DNA of 27,777 nt. Source: a virus. The stretch lies in the IMG/VR virus record IMGVR_UViG_3300046007_005432, positions 1-27,777 of that record; one strand, 5' to 3'. The position numbers and the translations under genes were made by a program. Below are positions 1,331 through 20,960 of this stretch, piece by piece; positions within the stretch are counted from its first letter, which is position 1, and each line of letters opens with the position of its first letter. The notes under the pieces were generated by a model, which saw only the letters and a program-made list of their open reading frames with translations, was not told where the DNA came from and ran no database searches.

Positions 1331-2047
1331 TTAATCGTAATCTATGTAAGTACTGACAAGTTGCATCACACGGTCTTTCTGCTTTGAGCCGTACTGTCGG
1401 CGAAGACGAGACTCAAAGTCAGCAATAATGTCTGCATATGCCTTTGCCTGTGGCATTTGCTTTGAGATTGCGTACTCCATAGCAGGACCGTATGCAAGCA
1501 TTGCGTGGAATGTGTAATCGAATCCAGGAATAACTGTTCCAGTGTTCCAATCAGATGTGGTGAAGTGTTTTGGACTACGGCTCCACATTGCGCGGATATA
1601 ACCACCGTTGGTTACATCAGTAGCATCTGCGCGAGGGTAGATAAAGAATGAAAGTCCTTCAGTGTCGTACACAGGACTTGCCTTTGAGTAGTACGAGTCG
1701 ATTTGTGTATCGTTACCAAGTCCTTCCACAATCTCACCAGCGTCGATTGGGGTAGCACGATAAGGGTTTGTACCGTCGTAACAAATATCAATACGCTTAA
1801 TGTTCAACACCTGCTCTGAAACAGGAATCGCGTAGTCGCGCTGTCCTGCAACAAGAGGTGTAGTCAAAATCGCATAGTCAGACCAGTTTGGGTCGTCATA
1901 GTCTGACTCATCTTGCGAATCAAGAATCATACCCACGACCTTTTCGAGCCAGATGTTTGCGTCAATGACGCGAGAAGCAATAGGGTACGCAGTTGTATCT
2001 GCGCCCGTTAATTGTTCGATTTTTGAATTGATGTCTCCTAAGGTCAT
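1331..2047 (-). CDS. Head-tail connector-like protein
   Basis: 238 residues. It begins MTLGDINSKIEQLTG, then a helical stretch (ANIWLEKVVGMILDSQDES), a beta-rich middle (ILTTPLVAGQRDYAIP) and a helical C-terminus (YADIIADFESRLRRQYGS). This order and length resemble head-tail adaptor or tail-accessory proteins of podo- and siphophages (P22 gp4-like in general organisation). The segment AGQRDYAIP is the sort often seen in such connector proteins. It lies downstream of the capsid genes, as expected, though three glycosyltransferase genes intervene. A 35-nt imperfect inverted repeat directly abuts the ATG. The assignment rests on pattern and position; a structure search would be needed for a firm family name. 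Confidence 0.55.
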   Translation of the reverse strand: MTLGDINSKIEQLTGADTTAYPIASRVIDANIWLEKVVGMILDSQDESDYDDPNWSDYAILTTPLVAGQRDYAIPVSEQVLNIKRIDICYDGTNPYRATPIDAGEIVEGLGNDTQIDSYYSKASPVYDTEGLSFFIYPRADATDVTNGGYIRAMWSRSPKHFTTSDWNTGTVIPGFDYTFHAMLAYGPAMEYAISKQMPQAKAYADIIADFESRLRRQYGSKQKDRVMQLVSTYIDYD

Positions 2048-2082
2048 GGAAAATAGGTTATCTGCCCGATAATCCTATTTCC
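2048..2082 (-). other. Hairpin abutting a start codon
   Basis: The plus strand reads GGAAAATAGGTTATC, a 5-nt TGCCC loop, then GATAATCCTATTTCC. The arms pair over 14 positions with two single-base bulges. The hairpin ends exactly at the ATG at 2047 of the connector-like gene. It fills most of the 49-nt gap after the GT2 gene. It could tune translation of the connector gene relative to the upstream glycosyltransferases, or act as a processing site. There is no U-tract, so it is not a simple terminator. Confidence 0.5.
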
Positions 2083-2096
2083 AATTATATATCCGA

Positions 2097-2735
2097 TTAT
2101 AGGTACTTCTTCTTCCAGTCACCATTAATCGCGTCCATACGAGAGTTGTATGCACGAAGATTGTTTGCTTCACGAGTTGTACGGAATGGGTGCTTCATAA
2201 CTGCATCGTGGTCCATTGCAACAACAGCAAGTTTGTTCTCACAGAAGAAATTGTATCCAGCCATCTCTGCGCGGTGTGCAATCTCAACATTCTCCCACGA
2301 CCAACCTTTATTGAACTCTTCATCGAATCCACCTACATCATAGAAAAGAGAACGTGGAGCAGACGCGAAATCAATCTCCCATTGGTCTGGTCGAACCTTC
2401 CCATTAACGTGCTTGCGCCAATCCCACTTAGCGCGTGCATCATAGAACTTTGCCTTTCCAACAGGGAATGTGTACCCCTTCATATCGTGGTCAAGTTTCG
2501 CAATACGTTCAAGAGCATCGTCGGGAATCTTAATACAGTCTTGGAGCATCACAATAATGTCTCCTGAACACTGACGAATGAGCCGATTCCAGTCAGATGG
2601 AAGTGTCCACTCTCCGTTTCTCAGTCCCAATACCACATTCCACTCGAAGTCCTTAAATGTTTGTCTCTCCAAACACTCCTGTGTCATATCGAGATATTCT
2701 GGTCGAATCGAAGGAGTAATTACGGAGATTTTCAT
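2097..2735 (-). CDS. Family 2 glycosyltransferase (GT-A fold)
   Basis: 212 residues. The N-terminus MKISVITPSIRPEYLDMTQE is the first beta strand and nucleotide-binding turn of GT2 enzymes. It is followed by LERQTFKDFEWNVVLG and, near residue 65, GDIIVMLQDCIKIP, where the usual DxD is replaced by LQDC. The segment FDEEFNKGWSWENVEIAHRA near residue 140 matches the acceptor region (GFDE..  W E..E) of GT2 proteins, with the E/D residues normally serving as base. It would transfer a sugar from a nucleotide-sugar, cytoplasmically. It is translated 3 nt after the GT4 gene. Family is clear; substrate is unknown. The degenerate DxD may alter metal binding. Confidence 0.85.
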   Translation of the reverse strand: MKISVITPSIRPEYLDMTQECLERQTFKDFEWNVVLGLRNGEWTLPSDWNRLIRQCSGDIIVMLQDCIKIPDDALERIAKLDHDMKGYTFPVGKAKFYDARAKWDWRKHVNGKVRPDQWEIDFASAPRSLFYDVGGFDEEFNKGWSWENVEIAHRAEMAGYNFFCENKLAVVAMDHDAVMKHPFRTTREANNLRAYNSRMDAINGDWKKKYL

Positions 2736-2738
2736 ATC

Positions 2739-3677
2739 TTAATTAGACAACTTTTTTATAACAAAGTCAAGACTATCTGCGTAGTGTTGTGCTGTCCATT
2801 TGGATTGAACATATGCAATACCACGCGCCTTTTCCTCATCAGACCAATTCTCAATAATGTCAGCAACAGCGGTCTTGATATGCCCGACGCTAGGCTCAAC
2901 AATAAGTCCCGCACCGCTTTCTTCGATGTACTCGCGATTCTTCGGACTATCAGTCATACAGACAACAGGGATACCGCACGACATTGCTTCGAGAGTTGCG
3001 CGTTGTCCGCCACCCCAATAATCAGCAGACTGAACAAGAACATGCGATTGGTTTAGGTAATCACAGATGTCTTCTGCCCTACTCTCTTCAATTACGGTTG
3101 AGCCGCACTCTTTACATTTATCGAATGGATACGGGTCTTCTTTCTGATGACGACCAACAACAATAGCGTCAGCACCAAATGCTTCACCAAGTAACCACTG
3201 TCTCTTCCATGATGCAGATGTTCCGTGATGAATAGCTTTCCACTTCTTTGGAAGTTTCTTTGGTTTCATCACCTTATCGTTGATTCCAAACGCGGTGTAC
3301 ACCTCTACACCAAGTTGTGAGAACTCATCGAAGTTAATCTTTGACTCTACACAGACGATATTGAAACCGTCTACCCATTCCTTTTGAATCGGACCACCAG
3401 CGAATAGAAGAGCCTTCTTTATCGTGTTCTGCCTTACTTTATTGTAGTGTGGCGCGTTGCTACCGTTTATGGTGCAAGGTGCTTCCCAATAAAGAATCAC
3501 ATCTACACCTGATATGTTGTCCCACGGTTCATGGAATGAAATGTCGTATTTCTTCGAGAGTATACGCACTGCTTCACGAAGTCCGTCGTTCCACTGGTTG
3601 AATATCTTTTCGTTCGATACTCCCTGCCAGACAAACGCAATCTTACTTCTCGTAGATTCTGATTTCTTCTTGGGCAT
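2739..3677 (-). CDS. GT4-like glycosyltransferase (GT-B fold)
   Basis: 312 residues. After a basic leader (MPKKKSESTRSK) comes the first strand IAFVWQGVSN. The C-terminal half carries the nucleotide-sugar site of GT4 enzymes: LVQSADYWGGGQRATLEAMS followed by CGIPVVCMTDSPKNREYI, in which the E of LEAMSCG is the expected donor-binding glutamate. The protein is shorter than usual GT4 enzymes (350-400 aa), mainly in the N-terminal Rossmann domain, which also holds a CKECG stretch. Its start overlaps the end of the preceding gene by 35 nt. I kept this start because the next residues are the core strand and no later start is available. Likely transfers sugar to a virion or host-surface acceptor; the acceptor is not known. 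Confidence 0.85.
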   Translation of the reverse strand: MPKKKSESTRSKIAFVWQGVSNEKIFNQWNDGLREAVRILSKKYDISFHEPWDNISGVDVILYWEAPCTINGSNAPHYNKVRQNTIKKALLFAGGPIQKEWVDGFNIVCVESKINFDEFSQLGVEVYTAFGINDKVMKPKKLPKKWKAIHHGTSASWKRQWLLGEAFGADAIVVGRHQKEDPYPFDKCKECGSTVIEESRAEDICDYLNQSHVLVQSADYWGGGQRATLEAMSCGIPVVCMTDSPKNREYIEESGAGLIVEPSVGHIKTAVADIIENWSDEEKARGIAYVQSKWTAQHYADSLDFVIKKLSN

Positions 3678-4062
3678 ATTCGAGGTCTTTATATAGATTA
3701 CCCTTCATCTCACGCACGCGAGATAGTTCAAAAGCGTCTTCTTCAGACTGTGTATCTTCAAACTTCTCTGAAATACCGCCTTCCATTTCCTCCATCTTCT
3801 CGTATTCAGACATCAACTGTTCAGCCTTCTGACGAACCTGAACATACTCCCAAAGATGTTGAACCTTATCGGTGTTCTTTGAGTTGATAGCCTTGATTAT
3901 AATGTGCTTTGGGTCTGGCTTATCTTTGATGTACGCAATAATATCCTTAATCTTTGCGAAACGAACTGGGTCTTCCAAGTCCATTTGGTTTGCACCAATC
4001 CACTCATAAACATCAGCAAAGAACTTAATGTCTATTCCTTGCAGTAGTGATTCGTTACTCAT
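3643..4062 (-). CDS. Unknown acidic helical protein
   Basis: 139 residues, highly charged and predicted mostly helical, with a coiled-coil-like second half (EQLMSEYEKMEEMEGG, later REMKGNLYKDLEYAQEEI). No known family recognised. The start overlaps the stop of the 766-aa fusion protein by 4 nt (ATGA type) and its 3' end overlaps the GT4 gene by 35 nt, so all four genes are translated as a block. The context suggests an accessory or scaffold factor for the glycosyltransferases, but the sequence does not show this. Confidence 0.75.
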   Translation of the reverse strand: MSNESLLQGIDIKFFADVYEWIGANQMDLEDPVRFAKIKDIIAYIKDKPDPKHIIIKAINSKNTDKVQHLWEYVQVRQKAEQLMSEYEKMEEMEGGISEKFEDTQSEEDAFELSRVREMKGNLYKDLEYAQEEIRIYEK

Positions 4063-6359
4063 ATAGCGTCATTATACCTTTTAGCGATTGATTCCCAAGT
4101 AAAGTTTTCGTCAGCCCACTTCTTCATCTCTGAACGGTCACCAATCTTCTTTTTAAGAATCTTCACGCAAGCATCTACCCATTCTTGTTGTGCCTTTTCG
4201 TCTTTGAGACCGAATGGTGCGTCATACATCTTAGGGTCTACCGCAACCTTTACTCCATACTTATTTGATTCTTCCAGCGCGCCGTAGTTTGTTGTTACAG
4301 GAATCGCACCACCAGATTGACCCTTCTTAACTGAGATACAATCAATTTCGGAGAACACAGTTGGGTAAGCAAGAATGTTTGCTCGGTGGTACAACTTCGC
4401 AACTTCTCCCTGTGAGAGACGACCAAGTACTTCGACACCTGCATCTTCCATTTCTTTAACAATATGTGCCTTCAAGTCCATCATCTTCTGATTGTCTGAA
4501 TGCGCGTTGTCGTAGATGTCCCAACCATATGCCCACTGAAGACGTGCTTGCGGTACCTTTTCTTTTACACGCTTAAACAGTGCAGGAAGAGTATCGAGAG
4601 AACGTTCTGGTGACGAAGTGTTGACCATAAGGTATTGGTCCTTCTCAATCTCTTCAACAACAGAAATCGTGTGTCCGTTTGGAATCACAGCAAACTTCTC
4701 GTCTGAGACGTTTGGGAACAAACTGCGGTGGTAGTGTGTTTTTACTAGAATCTTGTCAATCTTTGCGAGGCGTTCCTTCGTGAATTCTTCTGGTGATACA
4801 ACGTCGTGCAAATCTACAATTACTTTACCTGAGTTGAGTCCGTAATCGCACAACTTAGGACTGCGCCACAGGATTGTAACGTCTTGCTTGTCTCGTACAT
4901 TGTAAGCCCAGAATGGTTTCCAAATGACACCATCTGATTCCATCTCTGTACGACCAATGTTTGCGTACACAGTTACATTCCAACCGAGTTTCTTCAAGTG
5001 CTTTGACAAGTGGATTACAGATTCTTCTGAACCACCAACACCCTTTGTCTTGAACATTTCAGGGTTCCATTCGTGGGTCGTGAAACCACAATAAAATACC
5101 AAGTCTTTACCCGACGATGTTTCCTTTACGAAAATCTGATTATAGAGAGAACACACGGCAGGGTGAGAGCGTTCCTCGACAGTGAATCCATCAAGAATCT
5201 TCTTAACCTTTGCTTTATCCTTTTCTCCTACAAGAGATTTAACTTTTTCAGCGATTGCTTTGTCTTTGTTTTCTTGCTCTTTCATCGCGTCAAGCATCTC
5301 CCCCAACTTCTTGTTCTCTGGGTAGATTTTCATGCACGCTTCAAGTGGCGGAATCGCAAGTGACGGTTCGTTGAGTGCAAAGTAGCATTTCGACAAGAGC
5401 ATCAAAGGGTTGTAGTCGTAATCGCGTGGATTGAATACAATCATCGAGTGATACGAAGGTTTCTGTTTGAGACCGTGCAATAGATAACGCTTTGCTTGCT
5501 TAAAGTTCCCCCAAGCGTAGAACATATTTCCTGTTTGTAGATATGCGTCAGGCATCTCTGGGTTCTGACCCATAGCCAAGTACATATGTTTCTTCGCATT
5601 CTCCTTGTCGCCAAGCGCATCGTAACAACCAGCCATACGCATAAGCGCAAGATACTTCTCGTCGTCTGATTGCGATTCTTCGACGAATGAAATAAAAGCA
5701 GTAATTGCTTCTTTCCAACGACCAAGACCAGAGAGTGTATTCGCTACGTTCCAATAGTTGCGTGGGTCGTTTGGATTCTCTTCCAACGATACCTTAGCAA
5801 TACGAAGATTGCGCTCAAGATTCTCTCCCGCTCGCTTCTCGGTCGTAAGGTGAATACGGTCAATGCCTTCAATAAATCGAATATCCAAATCACGCTTAGG
5901 CATGAGGTCTTCGTGGATTTTACCAACCCATTCAGCAGCACCGCGCTTAATAACCATTGTCTTCTTGTGAGCAACAGTTGGTTGCTTGTACTCGTCAAAG
6001 TCGTAGAGGTACCACATCGCGTAACCGTCTGCCTTTGATGATTCAATGGTGTCTCGTAGTTTATCGAGTCCCTTGAATACGTCGTCAGCATCGCACCACA
6101 TGATGTAATCTACTGATTCAGGTACGAGTGCGAACGCATTGTTGCGTGCCTTCGCAAAGTCATCTTCCCAACGAGCGAAGACATAACTTGCATTGTACTT
6201 ATCGGCGACCTTGGCGCACGAATCATTCCATGAACCGTCTTTGTTTGAGAAATAGATGTAGATAGCATCTACGTGAGGCTCAACATTCTCCAAGCAACGG
6301 TCGAGAAGTTTTGCTTCTGCGTCATCAGCCTTAACAATAAGTGAAAGAGCAATAAACAT
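4059..6359 (-). CDS. GT2-TPR-GT4 fusion glycosyltransferase
   Basis: 766 residues with three parts. Residues 1 to ~200 form a GT2 domain of the WaaE/KdtX type: MFIALSLIVK start, FAKARNNAF near 68-76 and the metal-binding motif WCDADD at 88-93. Residues ~190-340 hold tetratricopeptide-like repeats (NYWNVANTLSGLGRWKEA, PDAYLQTGNMFYAWGNFKQA). From about residue 420 a GT4 domain begins (KTKGVGGSEESVIHLSKHL); its donor-site helix is replaced by DCISVKKGQSGGAIPV, with E residues before and after. The protein probably adds two sugars in sequence or combines chain start and extension. It starts on a TAATG overlap with the upstream gene and overlaps the next gene by 4 nt. The domains are clear; the acceptor (capsid, tail fibre or host glycan) is unknown. 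Confidence 0.88.
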   Translation of the reverse strand: MFIALSLIVKADDAEAKLLDRCLENVEPHVDAIYIYFSNKDGSWNDSCAKVADKYNASYVFARWEDDFAKARNNAFALVPESVDYIMWCDADDVFKGLDKLRDTIESSKADGYAMWYLYDFDEYKQPTVAHKKTMVIKRGAAEWVGKIHEDLMPKRDLDIRFIEGIDRIHLTTEKRAGENLERNLRIAKVSLEENPNDPRNYWNVANTLSGLGRWKEAITAFISFVEESQSDDEKYLALMRMAGCYDALGDKENAKKHMYLAMGQNPEMPDAYLQTGNMFYAWGNFKQAKRYLLHGLKQKPSYHSMIVFNPRDYDYNPLMLLSKCYFALNEPSLAIPPLEACMKIYPENKKLGEMLDAMKEQENKDKAIAEKVKSLVGEKDKAKVKKILDGFTVEERSHPAVCSLYNQIFVKETSSGKDLVFYCGFTTHEWNPEMFKTKGVGGSEESVIHLSKHLKKLGWNVTVYANIGRTEMESDGVIWKPFWAYNVRDKQDVTILWRSPKLCDYGLNSGKVIVDLHDVVSPEEFTKERLAKIDKILVKTHYHRSLFPNVSDEKFAVIPNGHTISVVEEIEKDQYLMVNTSSPERSLDTLPALFKRVKEKVPQARLQWAYGWDIYDNAHSDNQKMMDLKAHIVKEMEDAGVEVLGRLSQGEVAKLYHRANILAYPTVFSEIDCISVKKGQSGGAIPVTTNYGALEESNKYGVKVAVDPKMYDAPFGLKDEKAQQEWVDACVKILKKKIGDRSEMKKWADENFTWESIAKRYNDAI

Positions 6360-6695: not shown

Positions 6696-6756
6696 AGTTC
6701 GTTTCCTTTATGAGTTCCCCCACCCATAAAGGATAGGAGGGAGAACACAACGAACT
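6696..6756 (-). repeat. Nested perfect inverted repeats after capsid gene
   Basis: Two perfect nested dyads are present. The outer arms are AGTTCGTT (6696-6703) and AACGAACT (6749-6756). The inner arms are TCCTTTATG (6704-6712) and CATAAAGGA (6725-6733), directly next to the outer 5' arm. The structure overlaps the stop codon of the major capsid gene at 6755-6757. No U-run follows on the minus strand. It most likely stabilises or separates the abundant capsid message from the downstream glycosyltransferase genes, for example as a 3' stability hairpin or processing site. Confidence 0.65.
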
Positions 6757-7678
6757 AGAGAGTCTTCTTGAAGCCAGAGACGAAGAAGTTTGAATCTTGG
6801 TTGTTGACTTCGAGAGTCATAGAACCGTAGATTGTGCGCTTCTTGTATGCACCACTTGAAGGAAGTTCCATTTCCACTGGGCGGTGGAGGTATGCAATCT
6901 TCAACTTCTCAGGGCGAATAGCGAGGACGCGACCAGTAGCGTCAGCAGCTTGTTCAACGTAGCGGTGCTTGATGAACTTAACAGTACCGAACGATGTCTC
7001 GAATGTCGAAACAGTGCGTACGATGTCTGTCATTCCAGGAGTGTTGACAACAACGTTTGTCTTCTGAACGAACGTATCGACAACTTGGCGGAGACCACCA
7101 CCTGTGTAAACGTCGGTAGCAACGTCACCGTTTGAGTTCTCCCAGTTGTCCTTCATGAGTCCATCGAGGATAGACGCAGAGAAGACAGTACCCGAAGTCT
7201 GAGCGGTTGTGTTGGTTGACTTTGAGATTGCAGCGATGATACCGTTCATCTTTGCAGTTGTACCTGAAGCACCCGAGACGAGTGTTGAACGTACGAGGTC
7301 GAACTCTACACCGTTAGAGAAGTCCTTGAGAGCCTTCGTGGTCTGACGGTCGAGTTCATTACCGCCAGTGTAGTGTTCGATGTCCACCTGCTTCTGAGAA
7401 ACGGTGAAGGTACGAGCAACTTCCTCGACGATGTTAGTAAGGCGTACAGGCTGTGAAAGAGCAGCAGATGAGAAATCAGCACCCTGTTGAACAGCGAGTG
7501 AACCAGCAGTAGCAAGAGTATCTGTAAGGAATGAGTGAACCTCATCAATAGCAGTAGTCTTACCAAGAGACTTTTGGATATTATCCTCAGTCGCTGTGAG
7601 AATCTCGATAGCATTCTCTACAACGTCTTCTTTTCGACTTACGTCACCGTAAGTCTGATATGCATTAGCAACAGACAT
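6755..7678 (-). CDS. Major capsid protein, SU10/DUF5309-like
   Basis: 307 residues, the typical length of the SU10-like major capsid family (HK97 fold). Features I recognise from that family are the N-terminal helix (SVANAYQTYGDVSRKEDVVE), the segment LTNIVEEVARTFTVSQKQVD, the helix following (ELDRQTTKALKDF), a Gly/Thr-rich loop (TAKMNGIIAAISKSTN) and the C-terminal strands ending FFVSGFKKTL. It assembles the procapsid around the scaffold with the portal at one vertex. It lies directly after a scaffold-like gene and is followed by a stable nested hairpin. The start has an A/T-rich leader (AATATAAAATT) without Shine-Dalgarno. Confidence 0.88.
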   Translation of the reverse strand: MSVANAYQTYGDVSRKEDVVENAIEILTATEDNIQKSLGKTTAIDEVHSFLTDTLATAGSLAVQQGADFSSAALSQPVRLTNIVEEVARTFTVSQKQVDIEHYTGGNELDRQTTKALKDFSNGVEFDLVRSTLVSGASGTTAKMNGIIAAISKSTNTTAQTSGTVFSASILDGLMKDNWENSNGDVATDVYTGGGLRQVVDTFVQKTNVVVNTPGMTDIVRTVSTFETSFGTVKFIKHRYVEQAADATGRVLAIRPEKLKIAYLHRPVEMELPSSGAYKKRTIYGSMTLEVNNQDSNFFVSGFKKTL

Positions 7679-8666: not shown

Positions 8667-8695
8667 ACTATACAACACAAATTACCACTTGTCTA
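8667..8695 (-). promoter_or_regulatory. Promoter for scaffold/capsid unit
   Basis: Minus strand: TAGACA (-35, 8695-8690), 17-nt spacer, TATAGT (-10, 8672-8667). The predicted start lies about 3 nt before the ATG at 8657. The spacer end and -10 (GTGTTGTATAGT) closely resemble the TerS promoter (GTGTTGTACAGT), suggesting a shared late-promoter type. It overlaps the portal stop codon and could provide extra transcription of the scaffold and capsid genes. Confidence 0.55.
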
Positions 8696-10537
8696 CATCT
8701 GAGCAACAGACATGCGTGGTTGCTTTTGGTCACGTTGACCATTTGAGAACGAAGAAATCATTGCTTCTGCGTTTGTTTGTGAAGGATTTCCAGTAGGAAG
8801 TGAACCCGTCTGTTCGCGAGGAACATTTGGAAGCTCAGGCTTAGGAAGTCCCATCAAATCGAAGATGCGAGGAACAATAACCTCACGATACTCAGGTGTC
8901 ATTTGGAGAACAGTCGTGAGTTTGTCGATTGTTACAGAAATATCGAGGTCTTCATTGGTGATATAGACGTGAGTATCGACTGCACTGGTTACAACGTCGT
9001 CAATAACCTTAATGAAAAGGTCTTTGCGAGCCATAATCTGCTTCTTTGCAACCTCAACAGCTTGCATAATCTGCTCATCGGTAGGAATACGACCATTTTC
9101 GTACTCTTCGTCCATCTTTCGGTTGACTTCGTATACCGCAACACGTTCAACAAGTTTCTCAAACTCGTCTGTACCACCCAACATGCGAACAATGGTGCCA
9201 CATTTAAGGTCATCTGCTACGTGTGGGAGAATATGACGGTCAATCCAGCGTTGGTAGAACAATCCGATGCGTTCAATAATACCTGTGAATGAAGAAGATG
9301 CAGAACGGTTAAGAAGAACTGCGTTGGTAGCAGTTGTTGAAGCAGGAAGTGACTCACCAGTTACAGTTTCAAATGCAGAAGTAATGCGCTGCGCGATGGT
9401 TCGCATGTTCGTCTCGTCTGTATATGACGCTGGTGAAGCCTCTTGCATAACAAGTTGCTCGATGTCGTCCATGTTGTTGACGAGAATTGCACCGTTTGAA
9501 CCAAGGCGTGAAAGTTCTTGAGGTGTGATGTTAGCACCTTTACGAATCTTGAACAGACCCAACTGAGAAACATATGCTCTGTTGTGTCTGATATTGATAT
9601 TGATGTTCAACGACAACTGAATCATAAGTACCTTCTCAGCAATACCCTTGCCGTACCAACGACCAGGCATGTTTGTATAACGAACCTCCTCGTAAGGCTT
9701 GATGATGTTTCCCTCGTTGTCCTTGTTCTTGTTCTGTTCGATAAGATGGAGACGTGGACCGTTTGATTCGAGACCAGAGATTACGATATGTCCATCAATC
9801 TCATCTGTGTCGTCTGACTCACCAGTTACAAGATACTTAGGAATCTTACCCCACATCTCGTAAACATCTACTGACTCAGTTGTTGAATCATTTCCGTTTG
9901 AGAGGTTCTCATCATTAATGTGAAGTCCAGTAACACCTTGTACTCCTTCAGTATTAACCCAACCACTCATGGATTTGAGTTGGTCAGCAAACATCAAAGA
10001 GCGTTCAGTGAAGCGATATGCTGACTGAATCGACTCTGCACTCGGGTCAATGTAGACATTTAGCAAATCAACAATAGAACGCTTCAACGATTGCTTCATT
10101 GGACCCTTACCTTCCTTCCAAGTTTTAAGAACGCAAGTACCGTCAATAGAAATTGTTGACGCAATCTTATCTGCATCTTCACCAAAGTACGTGCCAGTTA
10201 GATATTCACGAACAGACTCACGCACGAGTTCAGTTGTTCCGTAACCCTTGTTGTTCTTTGCGCGGAACTGAATGTTCTTTGTGGATACTTTAATCTTTGG
10301 AGCAATAGTGTCTACAAGTTCTTCAGTAAGTGGATACCAAATCTTCTTACGACGTGTGAGTGGGTCGTATGGTTTATCAAATACACCTGCGTAGTTCTTA
10401 CGGAATGTTTTAATAAGGTCACGCATATCAAAGCGTACCTTGTCAGTAATCTGTACTACTGCGCGTTCATTGACGGTAACTTCGTTATCAACGATAGCAA
10501 TAGCCTCTTTGGAAATCTGCTCTGAAGTAAGTTTCAT
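8693..10537 (-). CDS. Portal protein
   Basis: 614 residues, a common length for podovirus-type portals. Recognisable features include the early basic region (YDPLTRRKKIWYPLTEELVD), LLNVYIDPSAESIQSAYRFT (the wing/stem transition seen in portal proteins), NMPGRWYGKGIAEKVLMIQL and the long helical stretch around FKIRKGANITPQELSRLGSN. It forms the dodecameric DNA channel at one capsid vertex and docks the terminase. It lies directly downstream of TerL with a 21-nt gap, the usual order. The acidic and helical C-terminus ends SFSNGQRDQKQPRMSVAQM. Leader CTATAATAAAAGTAA has no Shine-Dalgarno. Confidence 0.88.
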   Translation of the reverse strand: MKLTSEQISKEAIAIVDNEVTVNERAVVQITDKVRFDMRDLIKTFRKNYAGVFDKPYDPLTRRKKIWYPLTEELVDTIAPKIKVSTKNIQFRAKNNKGYGTTELVRESVREYLTGTYFGEDADKIASTISIDGTCVLKTWKEGKGPMKQSLKRSIVDLLNVYIDPSAESIQSAYRFTERSLMFADQLKSMSGWVNTEGVQGVTGLHINDENLSNGNDSTTESVDVYEMWGKIPKYLVTGESDDTDEIDGHIVISGLESNGPRLHLIEQNKNKDNEGNIIKPYEEVRYTNMPGRWYGKGIAEKVLMIQLSLNININIRHNRAYVSQLGLFKIRKGANITPQELSRLGSNGAILVNNMDDIEQLVMQEASPASYTDETNMRTIAQRITSAFETVTGESLPASTTATNAVLLNRSASSSFTGIIERIGLFYQRWIDRHILPHVADDLKCGTIVRMLGGTDEFEKLVERVAVYEVNRKMDEEYENGRIPTDEQIMQAVEVAKKQIMARKDLFIKVIDDVVTSAVDTHVYITNEDLDISVTIDKLTTVLQMTPEYREVIVPRIFDLMGLPKPELPNVPREQTGSLPTGNPSQTNAEAMISSFSNGQRDQKQPRMSVAQM

Positions 10538-10558: not shown

Positions 10559-12064
10559 TTATTCAAAGTCTGACGAATAGATAATATATTCCTCTGCTTC
10601 GTGTGTATTTTTCGGTTGTGTGTACTTTGCTTCGAGATTCCAGTACGCAAGAAGTGTTCCCATAACCATGTCGTCATGGAATCCATTTGGCGCACCTGCA
10701 CCTTTCTTCGCCGCCTCATCGGTATAACGGAACATCTTCAACTCACCAATTACAGCAGTATCGTAAATCTTTGGGAACTGACGATTAAGAAGGTTCTTAA
10801 AGTTTTCAATAAGGAGTGTCTTATTCTGGAAGTTTGTATAGAAACCAATCTTCTGTGTTTTCTTCTGAAGACGATTAGAGAACACTTCACGCACGTACAA
10901 CTCGTCGTAGACCTTTTTCAAGTCTTCAACAAGAGCCTGACCTACTCCCGTTGCTTCAGGCACAATAAGTGGCTTAGACTTCTTTGAGTACATCATCGCT
11001 AACTGAACAGCCTTCTCGGTAATAGCACGTGTTGGAACGTAGGCAGACCATGTAGCAACTAACTCTCCTGTATCTTTATCAACAACAGCAATAAAGCATG
11101 GGTCGGATTCTCCCAATGAAGGGTCAATACCAATCTGATACTCGTGATTATCTGGCTCAACAAATATCTTAATACCATCGAGTGTACGAATAGGAGTCTT
11201 CGAGTACATCTCCTGGTCACGCATCTGTTCCTCATAGAACACAGTACCTTCAGCCATAATCGACGTATCCCAAATACCGTACACATACCTCTCAACGTAT
11301 ATCTTTGGTTTATTCAATTCAGATTCCAAGAACTGTCTTGAAAGGAATTGCTTATTATCAATCATCGAAGTCTCAACAAGGTGTGAGAACGGTTGTGGTG
11401 CTGCCTTAAAGAAGTTGTATCCCCAATAGTTTGCAGGGTTTGTTGTCATACACATCTGCATGAACGTGTACTTACCACAGACATTACACATTTCATACGA
11501 AGGATTTCCTTGCTTATCGTTTACAACAGTAGCATCTTGTTCAGGTGAGTGCTTACACTGTCTACGACGCATACGAGAGTTAAGAGCATCAAAGACTTTC
11601 TTCTCGATTTCTTCCAACTGGTCAATAAATATAAAGCCGAAGTTGTGAGATTTCAACTCCTGTTCTGCTTTCTTAATATCCTCACCACCACCTTGAAGAG
11701 CATCAAGACCAAAGAACACTGCTTCAGTACCATTGGTGAATATCAACTTAGCTTCACCAACCTTATGTTCATACAATCCAGGAGGACAAATATCAGCAAA
11801 GTCCTTCATAAACGTACTAATCGCATTGGTCTTCGTCTTTCTACCAATAAGAATACGTGTACCAGGAAACCATTGAGTAATCAGAATGAACTTGATTATC
11901 CACGCTGTCGTCTTTCCTGAAGCCATACCTCCCGAGATAAGAGAAAAACGGTTCTTATCTTTAATGAAATCAATCTGTTTCTGATTGAGTTTGATTCCAT
12001 TGAACTCCTTGATGTTTAACTCACCACGGAGCCACGCTTTTCCCATCTCTTCGTAATCCATCAT
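10559..12064 (-). CDS. terL: Terminase large subunit
   Basis: 501 residues. The ATPase Walker A is GGMASGKT at 45-52; Walker B is FIFIDQLEE at about 144-152, with the catalytic acid pair at its end; the coupling motif is MTTNP near 206. The nuclease domain starts at YQIGIDPSLGESD (catalytic D near 314) and has the late acidic motif HDDMVMGT near 465. It packages DNA into procapsids and makes the cuts. Between Walker B and the coupling motif is an inserted putative zinc knuckle (C170, H172, C193, C196), not present in most TerL proteins. The gene begins ATGATG on a 4-nt overlap with the upstream gene. The family assignment is firm. Confidence 0.93.
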   Translation of the reverse strand: MMDYEEMGKAWLRGELNIKEFNGIKLNQKQIDFIKDKNRFSLISGGMASGKTTAWIIKFILITQWFPGTRILIGRKTKTNAISTFMKDFADICPPGLYEHKVGEAKLIFTNGTEAVFFGLDALQGGGEDIKKAEQELKSHNFGFIFIDQLEEIEKKVFDALNSRMRRRQCKHSPEQDATVVNDKQGNPSYEMCNVCGKYTFMQMCMTTNPANYWGYNFFKAAPQPFSHLVETSMIDNKQFLSRQFLESELNKPKIYVERYVYGIWDTSIMAEGTVFYEEQMRDQEMYSKTPIRTLDGIKIFVEPDNHEYQIGIDPSLGESDPCFIAVVDKDTGELVATWSAYVPTRAITEKAVQLAMMYSKKSKPLIVPEATGVGQALVEDLKKVYDELYVREVFSNRLQKKTQKIGFYTNFQNKTLLIENFKNLLNRQFPKIYDTAVIGELKMFRYTDEAAKKGAGAPNGFHDDMVMGTLLAYWNLEAKYTQPKNTHEAEEYIIYSSDFE

Positions 12065-15997: not shown

Positions 15998-17455
15998 CTA
16001 AGCCTTCTCGTCTTCTACTTCTGCAATAAGTATGTCTGTGGTAAGTACCAACGACGCAACCGAACAGGCGTTTTCTAAACCAACCTTTACTGAATCAACG
16101 GGGTCATACACCCATTCAGGGATAGTCTTGGTACCGTTCTCCTTAATCTTTTCGTGCGGTGCCTTGAGAGCGTCTTTAAGAATCTCGAATTGGTCTGCGA
16201 TATTGTATAGAGCAAGTCCACCACCACGCACAACACCAGAACGTGCAGCCATTTTACATGCACACACAGCATCATCAATCTTCAACTTCAAGTAGGTACG
16301 CTCTTGGTGAGTCTTTGCTCCCACCTTAATTGTTGCAACCATGCCCTTCAATGAAGCGATGCGCTCTTCTTGTTGAGCCTTATCGTATTCTGACTTTGGC
16401 TTTACCGCCTTAATCTTTTTGATTTGCTCTGATACATCTGCTTTTGCACCAATAAATGTTGTGCGGTCATCAACAACTGAAAGAGAATCACACGTTCCAA
16501 GCGATGATAGAAGCACATCTTCAAGACGGTCTGTCTCTCGACGAATAAATGTTGCTCCCGTCTTAGCCGCAATATCTTCTGCGAGTTCCATTTGGTATGA
16601 CTCGTAGTATCTAACAGGCAGGATTACAAATCCTTGGTGAATCTTGTTGGCTACACAAGCGGCAATAATTGACGGGTCAAACTCAGGGGCAACAATAATG
16701 AGTGCCGACTCAGGCGTGGTATTCGCAACTTCTTGTGCAATCTTCTGAACCTGCGCAATCGCTGTAAGTTTGTGGCTTGTTACGATAATCTTTGGATTGT
16801 CTTGCTTGAATGTTCCGTCCTTCTTGTTGGCCATCAACGGTGTGTAGAGTCCAAGAGGAATCTCAATACCTTCTTTGTATTCAACCGTTATATCCTTCTG
16901 CTCTGCTTCCTCGACGTTTACTGAACCATCTGCACCGACCTTCTCGACAACATCGGCAACCAATTTTCCAAGTTCTTCGTTCTCCATTGATACACGACCA
17001 ATAGTAGCCAACTCACCCTTCTTCAAAGGACGTGCTGACTTATTCAACAGTTCCTCGACCTGTTCGCGCTCCTTCTCAATCTTGGTGCGAATCTCCAAGA
17101 CGTTGGGCTTCTTTGTGATTACCAATCCGTTATCTGCAATCAAGTCATTGACTGTGTTTGCAAGTTTCTGTGCGATGACAGCAGACGTTGTTGTTCCGTC
17201 TCCTGCACGGTCATTGGTCTTCTGGCACACTTCAATCATGGTCTTAGCACCAAGATTCTGTGCGTCGTCGGTTAGTTCGATTTGCTTTGCGATTGATACA
17301 CCGTCGTTTGTGATGGTCGGTGTACGGAATCTATCGCCGTAGATTGCATTCTTACCGTTGGGACCGAGTGTTCTACCGAGTGTGTCACCAACGAAATTAA
17401 TACCTGCCATTAATGCTGCGCGAGCTTCATTACCAACAAGAATCTTTTTCTTCAT
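15998..17455 (-). CDS. groEL: GroEL-type chaperonin, shortened
   Basis: 485 residues against about 548 for bacterial GroEL. The ATP site is present: LGPNGKNAIYG near 30, TNDGVSIA with D51, AGDGTTTSA with D86, IDDAV with D395, GGG at 411-413 and DP at 451. The apical domain (about 196-378) is near full length. Between the GGG motif and DP the protein is about 40 residues shorter than E. coli GroEL, losing the NAATEEY-type stem loop that contacts the nucleotide base. The C-terminal GGM tail is also absent. It should form a ring that folds phage proteins, possibly the capsid protein, as in other phages carrying GroEL. No GroES is visible in the window. Its own promoter precedes it and there is no Shine-Dalgarno. 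Confidence 0.93.
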   Translation of the reverse strand: MKKKILVGNEARAALMAGINFVGDTLGRTLGPNGKNAIYGDRFRTPTITNDGVSIAKQIELTDDAQNLGAKTMIEVCQKTNDRAGDGTTTSAVIAQKLANTVNDLIADNGLVITKKPNVLEIRTKIEKEREQVEELLNKSARPLKKGELATIGRVSMENEELGKLVADVVEKVGADGSVNVEEAEQKDITVEYKEGIEIPLGLYTPLMANKKDGTFKQDNPKIIVTSHKLTAIAQVQKIAQEVANTTPESALIIVAPEFDPSIIAACVANKIHQGFVILPVRYYESYQMELAEDIAAKTGATFIRRETDRLEDVLLSSLGTCDSLSVVDDRTTFIGAKADVSEQIKKIKAVKPKSEYDKAQQEERIASLKGMVATIKVGAKTHQERTYLKLKIDDAVCACKMAARSGVVRGGGLALYNIADQFEILKDALKAPHEKIKENGTKTIPEWVYDPVDSVKVGLENACSVASLVLTTDILIAEVEDEKA

Positions 17456-17462
17456 ATATTAA

Positions 17463-17503
17463 AAAAATACCACATAAGTGGCATTTCTTCAAGGTGTGGA
17501 TAA
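17463..17503 (-). promoter_or_regulatory. Chaperonin promoter or attenuator
   Basis: Minus strand: TTATCCACA (17503-17495), CC, TTGAAG, a 17-nt spacer, TATTTT, then 8 nt to the ATG at 17455. The spacer contains the dyad ATGCCAC-TTAT-GTGGTAT, directly followed by seven T. Read as DNA it is a promoter with an operator in the spacer giving a nearly leaderless message. Read as RNA it is a perfect short intrinsic terminator at the end of the upstream gene. Both may apply: upstream transcription stops here and a new start serves the chaperonin. Confidence 0.6.
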
Positions 17504-17504
17504 C

Positions 17505-20889: not shown

Positions 20890-20960
20890 TTCCATCGGCA
20901 CGAATCGGACGCGCATCTCTAAATCCAAAGTTTAGCGGGCTACCGTTACCCCACGATGGA
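20890..20960 (-). tRNA. tRNA-Gln (anticodon TTG)
   Basis: 71 nt: acceptor TCCATCG/CGATGGA (7 perfect pairs), D arm GGGT-AACGGTA-GCCC with A14, GG and A21, anticodon stem CTAAA/TTTAG around CTTTGGA (T33, anticodon TTG), variable AGAT, T arm GCGCG/CGTGC around TCCGATT, discriminator A. The T loop has C at position 55 where T is normal. The CCA end is not encoded (ACAAA follows). It lies 7 nt upstream of the HNH gene and inside the insert that separates the tRNA halves. Confidence 0.85.

Follow-up and report, generated by a model that had tools for sequence, protein, structure and literature searches.

A phage-encoded group I chaperonin from a viral clade that lacks two equatorial segments of GroEL

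We analyzed a window of 27,777 bp, the whole stretch of DNA taken from an IMG/VR virus record, and found that its chaperonin belongs to the group I chaperonins (GroEL/Cpn60) as a real and selected variant; the virus infects bacteria and encodes its own protein-folding chaperonin. With moderate confidence, we interpret this protein as a functional, group I-derived phage chaperonin of a viral clade from which two equatorial segments have been removed, probably working as a single ring with an open adenine pocket. In particular, the aligned members of this clade were found to be without the interface and hairpin segments and without R452, to have an enlarged loop after helix D in nearly all cases, and to have kept the aspartates.

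The gene occupies positions 15998-17455, as an earlier note on this DNA had stated, and we corrected its orientation to the minus strand. Its product matched Cpn60_TCP1 (PF00118) in Pfam with a score of 113.7 bits, above the cut-off of 34.3, and matched phrog_5725 (chaperonin groEL) with an E-value of 9e-84. The NCBIfam GroEL models also matched the protein, and the 289.4 bits obtained with the equivalog TIGR02348 were below its cut-off of 582.1. The gene and the altered regions of its product are as follows:

15998..17455, minus strand: short-loop chaperonin gene (groEL homologue), 485 aa, matching PF00118 and phrog_5725
16186..16187, minus strand: deletion junction 1, between F423 and E424, without E. 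coli 427-440, which includes the ring-ring contact E434
16115..16138, minus strand: deletion junction 2, residues 440-447 (NGTKTIPE), without E. coli about 458-488, which includes E461, S463, V464 and the adenine contacts Y478-A481
16151..16153, minus strand: E435, equivalent to R452 by alignment; R452E is among the four SR1 changes (PMC2741606, PMC12696368)
17102..17143, minus strand: enlarged loop after helix D, the site of the A109 ring-ring contact

Upon alignment, 37 residues were found between G413 and D451 of the window protein, compared with 78 in Salmonella/E. coli GroEL, so that 41 are missing and the shortening described in the earlier note was borne out. Two blocks were absent, corresponding to E. 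coli 427-440 and about 458-488, and the residue aligned to 461 was uncertain, as it sits at the edge of the gap. The inter-ring contacts of GroEL are A109, E434, E461-R452, S463 and V464, and the quadruple mutant R452E/E461A/S463A/V464A has separated rings; N479, A480 and A481 are listed as nucleotide contacts (PMC2741606). Because the missing segments hold both sets of residues, the standard interface and the adenine hairpin were lost together, and a single remodelling appears from the alignment to have taken both away. The earlier note had seen only the adenine-hairpin half and had missed that the ring-ring contacts E434, E461, S463 and V464 went in the same deletion. Its statement that the stem loop region was lost holds for the β16-loop-β17 hairpin and the neighbouring interface segments, but the GroEL stem-loop proper (residues 34-52) is present.

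The same losses were observed throughout 55 aligned clade members (full-length rows with duplicates and truncated ORFs removed, including the window, its sister, L210 and a sequence from a Kaiserbacteria bin). The adenine-binding hairpin Y478-N479-A480-A481 (positions 478-481) and ring-ring positions 434, 463 and 464 were absent in all 55, and none had R at position 452, which was mostly N, E, D or Q (E in the window). The segment from helix D to helix E contained 21-31 residues in most short-loop sequences, compared with 16 in all 83 bacterial sequences. None of the 55 members, the window included, carried a GGM-rich C-terminal tail, which agreed with the earlier observation at the window C-terminus, although this tail is not universal in bacteria (48 of 78 Patescibacteria). 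A diverged version of the missing segment was rejected, as the aligned gap had no counterpart in any short-loop sequence.

The four aspartates were identified by alignment as follows:

17303..17305, minus strand: D51 (E. coli D52)
17198..17200, minus strand: D86 (E. coli D87), within GDGTTT
16271..16273, minus strand: D395 (E. coli catalytic D398)
16103..16105, minus strand: D451 (E. coli D495, ribose contact)

The catalytic and Mg aspartates D52, D87 and D398 of group I chaperonins are thus present as D51, D86 and D395. In GroEL, Asp495 contacts the ribose and Asn479 the adenine ring of the nucleotide (PMC3053311); all four aspartates that the earlier note had called catalytic were correctly located, but D451 is a ribose contact and not a catalytic residue. 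Among the 55 aligned members, D52, D87 and D495 were conserved in every one and D398 in 53.

An AlphaFold2 model of a single subunit, based on an alignment of 50 window and IMG/VR sequences, revealed the three-domain fold of GroEL with a mean pLDDT of 89.7. This gave a structure prediction, as the earlier note had proposed, at the level of one subunit; confidence was lowest in the enlarged loop (pLDDT below 50 at residues 110-115) and at the C-terminus. Foldseek matched the subunit model to open GroEL subunits with a TM-score of about 0.8 (0.81 to GroEL 1oel) and, among viral models, to the GroEL of an uncultured marine virus (0.91) and to the AR9 chaperonin subunit (0.89).

A sister gene with 95.5% DNA identity and an identical gap was found on a 42,001 bp contig of another record. 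The groEL codons of the two viruses differed by 67 synonymous and 3 nonsynonymous changes, a pattern of strong purifying selection on groEL. Additionally, at least 68 viral loci in IMG/VR (66 contigs) had 46 or fewer residues between GGG and DP, nearly all of them 40-43, with 37 in the window and its sister. About 65 further uncultured-virus contigs thus share the shortening besides these two; the further relatives were found with a profile of the C-terminal region, and the numbers of contigs reflect a scan in which 80 loci were kept. A frameshift or assembly deletion, which the earlier note had named as a way for its reading to fail, was ruled out by the codon pattern and by this recurrence. 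Since so many other viruses have lost the same segments, the shortened form is an inherited design and not an error.

In a careful maximum-likelihood tree, from which the loop columns were excluded, the 23 short-loop sequences that were kept formed one side of a branch (100/96; 200/200 bootstrap trees), and this comparison with phage and host GroELs, suggested in the earlier note, placed the clade adjoining those of Patescibacteria. The rows dropped after a first quick tree were L205, L187, L210 and L164, which had long branches or an uncertain placement, and several sequences closely related to rows that stayed in. The quick tree united 34 of 35 short-loop rows (95) together with two intermediate-loop sequences, and placed L210 elsewhere; the window was a long branch in both trees. 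From these sequence comparisons, we infer that the short-loop GroELs share one ancestral remodelling; that the deletion is common to a whole viral clade had escaped the earlier note. The GroELs of L181 and L099, which have intermediate loops (56 and 65 residues) and keep the hairpin, branch beside the short-loop clade and are possible intermediates.

The nearest cellular relatives, judged by distance and by identity (mean about 37%), were the GroELs of Patescibacteria (Minisyncoccota), but their loop is full-length (77-90 residues) and their residue at position 452 is mostly R or K. Among the matches listed in a genome scan, one GroEL was of the short-loop type (L222), in a bin labelled Candidatus Kaiserbacteria; the remaining 79 had a normal loop and were nearly all from Patescibacteria where named. 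Patescibacteria may accordingly be the hosts, as suggested by the nearest tree neighbours and the Kaiserbacteria bin. We put this forward as a hypothesis, because the clade, although closest by path to rows from Patescibacteria, does not branch from within them, and because the genome scan used clade-derived patterns. In 380 Patescibacteria genomes, a single weak relative (26%) turned up for the window capsid protein. The literature was searched for GroEL in Patescibacteria or CPR phages with no relevant result, and a made-up clade-like C-terminal peptide used as the query gave only gapped matches among those listed from deposited phage records. Few phages of Patescibacteria are known. Outside the sister, the closest capsid protein (71%) was that of the L108 virus, yet this virus has a different, intermediate-loop GroEL (1981-3447) upstream of its head genes, which suggests gene exchange or fast change.

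The surroundings of groEL in the window contained the following features:

17456..17504, minus strand: groEL leader with GTTATCCACACC, TTGAAG (17492-17487), the dyad ATGCCACTTATGTGGTAT (17484-17467) and TATTTT (17469-17464), then ATG
10559..12064, minus strand: terminase large subunit, downstream of groEL (phrog_2, E 2e-27)
8693..10537, minus strand: portal protein (phrog_1216, E 3e-7)
6755..7678, minus strand: major head protein, possible chaperonin client (phrog_1328, E 2e-35)

The position of groEL just upstream of the terminase, portal and head genes supports, without proving, the head proteins as chaperonin clients; groEL was also upstream of the terminase in L145, L198, L187 and L168. 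The proposal of a minimal folding ring adapted to virion proteins gained from this location, from the purifying selection and from the kept aspartates. The sister has a different gene upstream but retains about 50 nt of the leader, and the dyad, unique in the window (folding z -4.1), was perfect in the sister and contained one G-U pair in the window. The conserved block of the near leaderless promoter and spacer dyad described earlier is therefore real, but its reading as a promoter is plausible at most: TTGAAG-17 nt-TATTTT has 8 of 12 consensus bases, under the threshold of the promoter scanner, and promoter, terminator-like and operator roles are all compatible. The motif TTATCCAC occurred 8 times in the window against 0.8 expected (11896, 13586, 14453, 17503, 19957, 25569, 26220 and 27246), once in the groEL leader; seven of the eight sites read TTATCCACA, the DnaA-box consensus, and they were mostly shared with the sister. 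Two glycosyltransferase-like proteins (4059-6359 and 2739-3677), one with TPR repeats, adjoin the capsid genes, and a tRNA gene lies at 20890-20960 on the minus strand.

As the earlier note had observed for the window, no GroES was visible: neither the window (27.8 kb) nor the sister (42.0 kb) contained a Cpn10 detectable by Pfam, a local iterated HMM, or alignment and profiles seeded with viral GroES. Other members of the clade do encode one, as far as can be read from records that are mostly fragments and possibly incomplete, though many are 40-43 kb. When further short-loop viral records were screened over their full length with Pfam, three gave a Cpn10 match, and viral GroES profiles revealed a GroES gene that overlaps the groEL 3' end in L187 and L182 and one just upstream of groEL in L205 and L210. 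The L177 record has a GroES upstream of a second GroEL; L305 and L177 are one 42.5 kb contig (G036) with apparently two GroELs, the short-loop one near one end and the GroES-preceded one near the other. Clade-wide independence of GroES was rejected, since at least four members encode GroES beside GroEL, and for the window chaperonin the gene content only suggests the independence that had been proposed. Because a few members encode GroES and none was found in the window or its sister, the lid would be optional in the clade.

Based on these results, we propose a ring that is driven by nucleotide and does not have the canonical contacts between rings. The subunits would form heptameric rings unable to build the standard staggered double ring, present mainly as single rings and possibly joined by a new weak interface. 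ATP would be held by way of the phosphates, Mg and the ribose, the base being gripped weakly or not at all, and from this would follow a lower affinity and a looser choice of nucleotide. Phage proteins, most likely the head proteins encoded just downstream, would be held and released in the late phase; a separate ring would also avoid mixing with host GroEL. Most members would probably stay open or use host GroES, and a few bring their own lid.

It is also conceivable, though somewhat unlikely in our estimate, that the interface was replaced and not lost, so that double rings form via a new surface and the short segment caps the adenine. The chaperonin of phiEL lost the GroEL-type interface, yet its rings still pair, in register and through 1:1 contacts, and it alternates between the double-ring and single-ring states (PMC7185714). 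By analogy, the loop after helix D, enlarged from 16 to 21-31 residues in nearly all clade members, could form such an interface, and the replacing segment, NGTKTIPEWV, could cap the base, against an open pocket. However, the loop varies widely in length and was modelled at low confidence at 110-115 in the window, a poor fit to a conserved interface.

We consider it unlikely that the protein is a standard chaperonin with host GroES and host-like cycling, in which the deletion trims only a tolerant region. The GroES genes beside groEL in L187, L182, L205 and L210, the normal host GroES carried by the Kaiserbacteria bin with the short-loop GroEL, and the hydrophobic GroES-binding positions 237, 259 and 263 in most members are consistent with it. 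The lost positions, however, are the ring contacts and adenine contacts, and conservation of the residues Y203, L234 and V264 does not extend through the clade; the window has Q at L234 and A at L237. A decaying or non-folding relic, or an assembly artefact, would account for the loss of otherwise conserved segments and for the low equivalog score (289 against 582 bits), but is very improbable: it is largely refuted by the synonymous excess and the recurrence, and many diverged contigs share the 40-43 residue loop with intact catalytic residues.

So far, it is mostly with engineered mutants that the need for a second ring and for an adenine clamp has been probed. A diverse viral clade that appears to have dropped both while keeping the catalytic residues makes the minimum folding ring testable on natural proteins, and the short-loop GroEL provides a chaperonin marker for phages whose hosts may be Patescibacteria. 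More broadly, and only tentatively, the phages of one large clade, which probably infect Patescibacteria, may have naturally single-ring chaperonins that lack the adenine clamp and recognize only phosphate, Mg and ribose, with a relaxed choice of nucleotide and a lid that is optional; such a minimal chaperonin would have evolved once and been strongly selected.

Compared with E. coli GroEL/SR1 (R452E/E461A/S463A/V464A), the window protein has the same fold and catalytic aspartates and resembles SR1 in effect, with E at R452 and without S463 and V464. Unlike SR1, it wholly lacks 427-440 and about 458-488 with the adenine hairpin, has no GGM tail and has a larger loop after helix D. The crAss-like GroELs cr108_1 and phi14:2 are likewise shortened (46 and 55 residues), but they were placed elsewhere in the tree and so were shortened independently, and phi14:2 seems to retain the hairpin; a common origin with them was unsupported by the trees. 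The jumbo-phage chaperonins EL, OBP and AR9 are single-ring or ring-separating and are described as needing no co-chaperonin (PMC7185714, PMC9598537). The window protein, known from its sequence and subunit model, is similar to them in being phage-encoded with a GroEL fold and a remodelled ring interface. However, the stretch between GGG and D/N is 68 residues long in the OBP chaperonin and 97 in that of PBS1, the nucleotide pocket of phiEL is reportedly conserved, and the clade to which the window protein belongs is GroEL-like and comes from phages that are apparently small (contigs up to about 44 kb).
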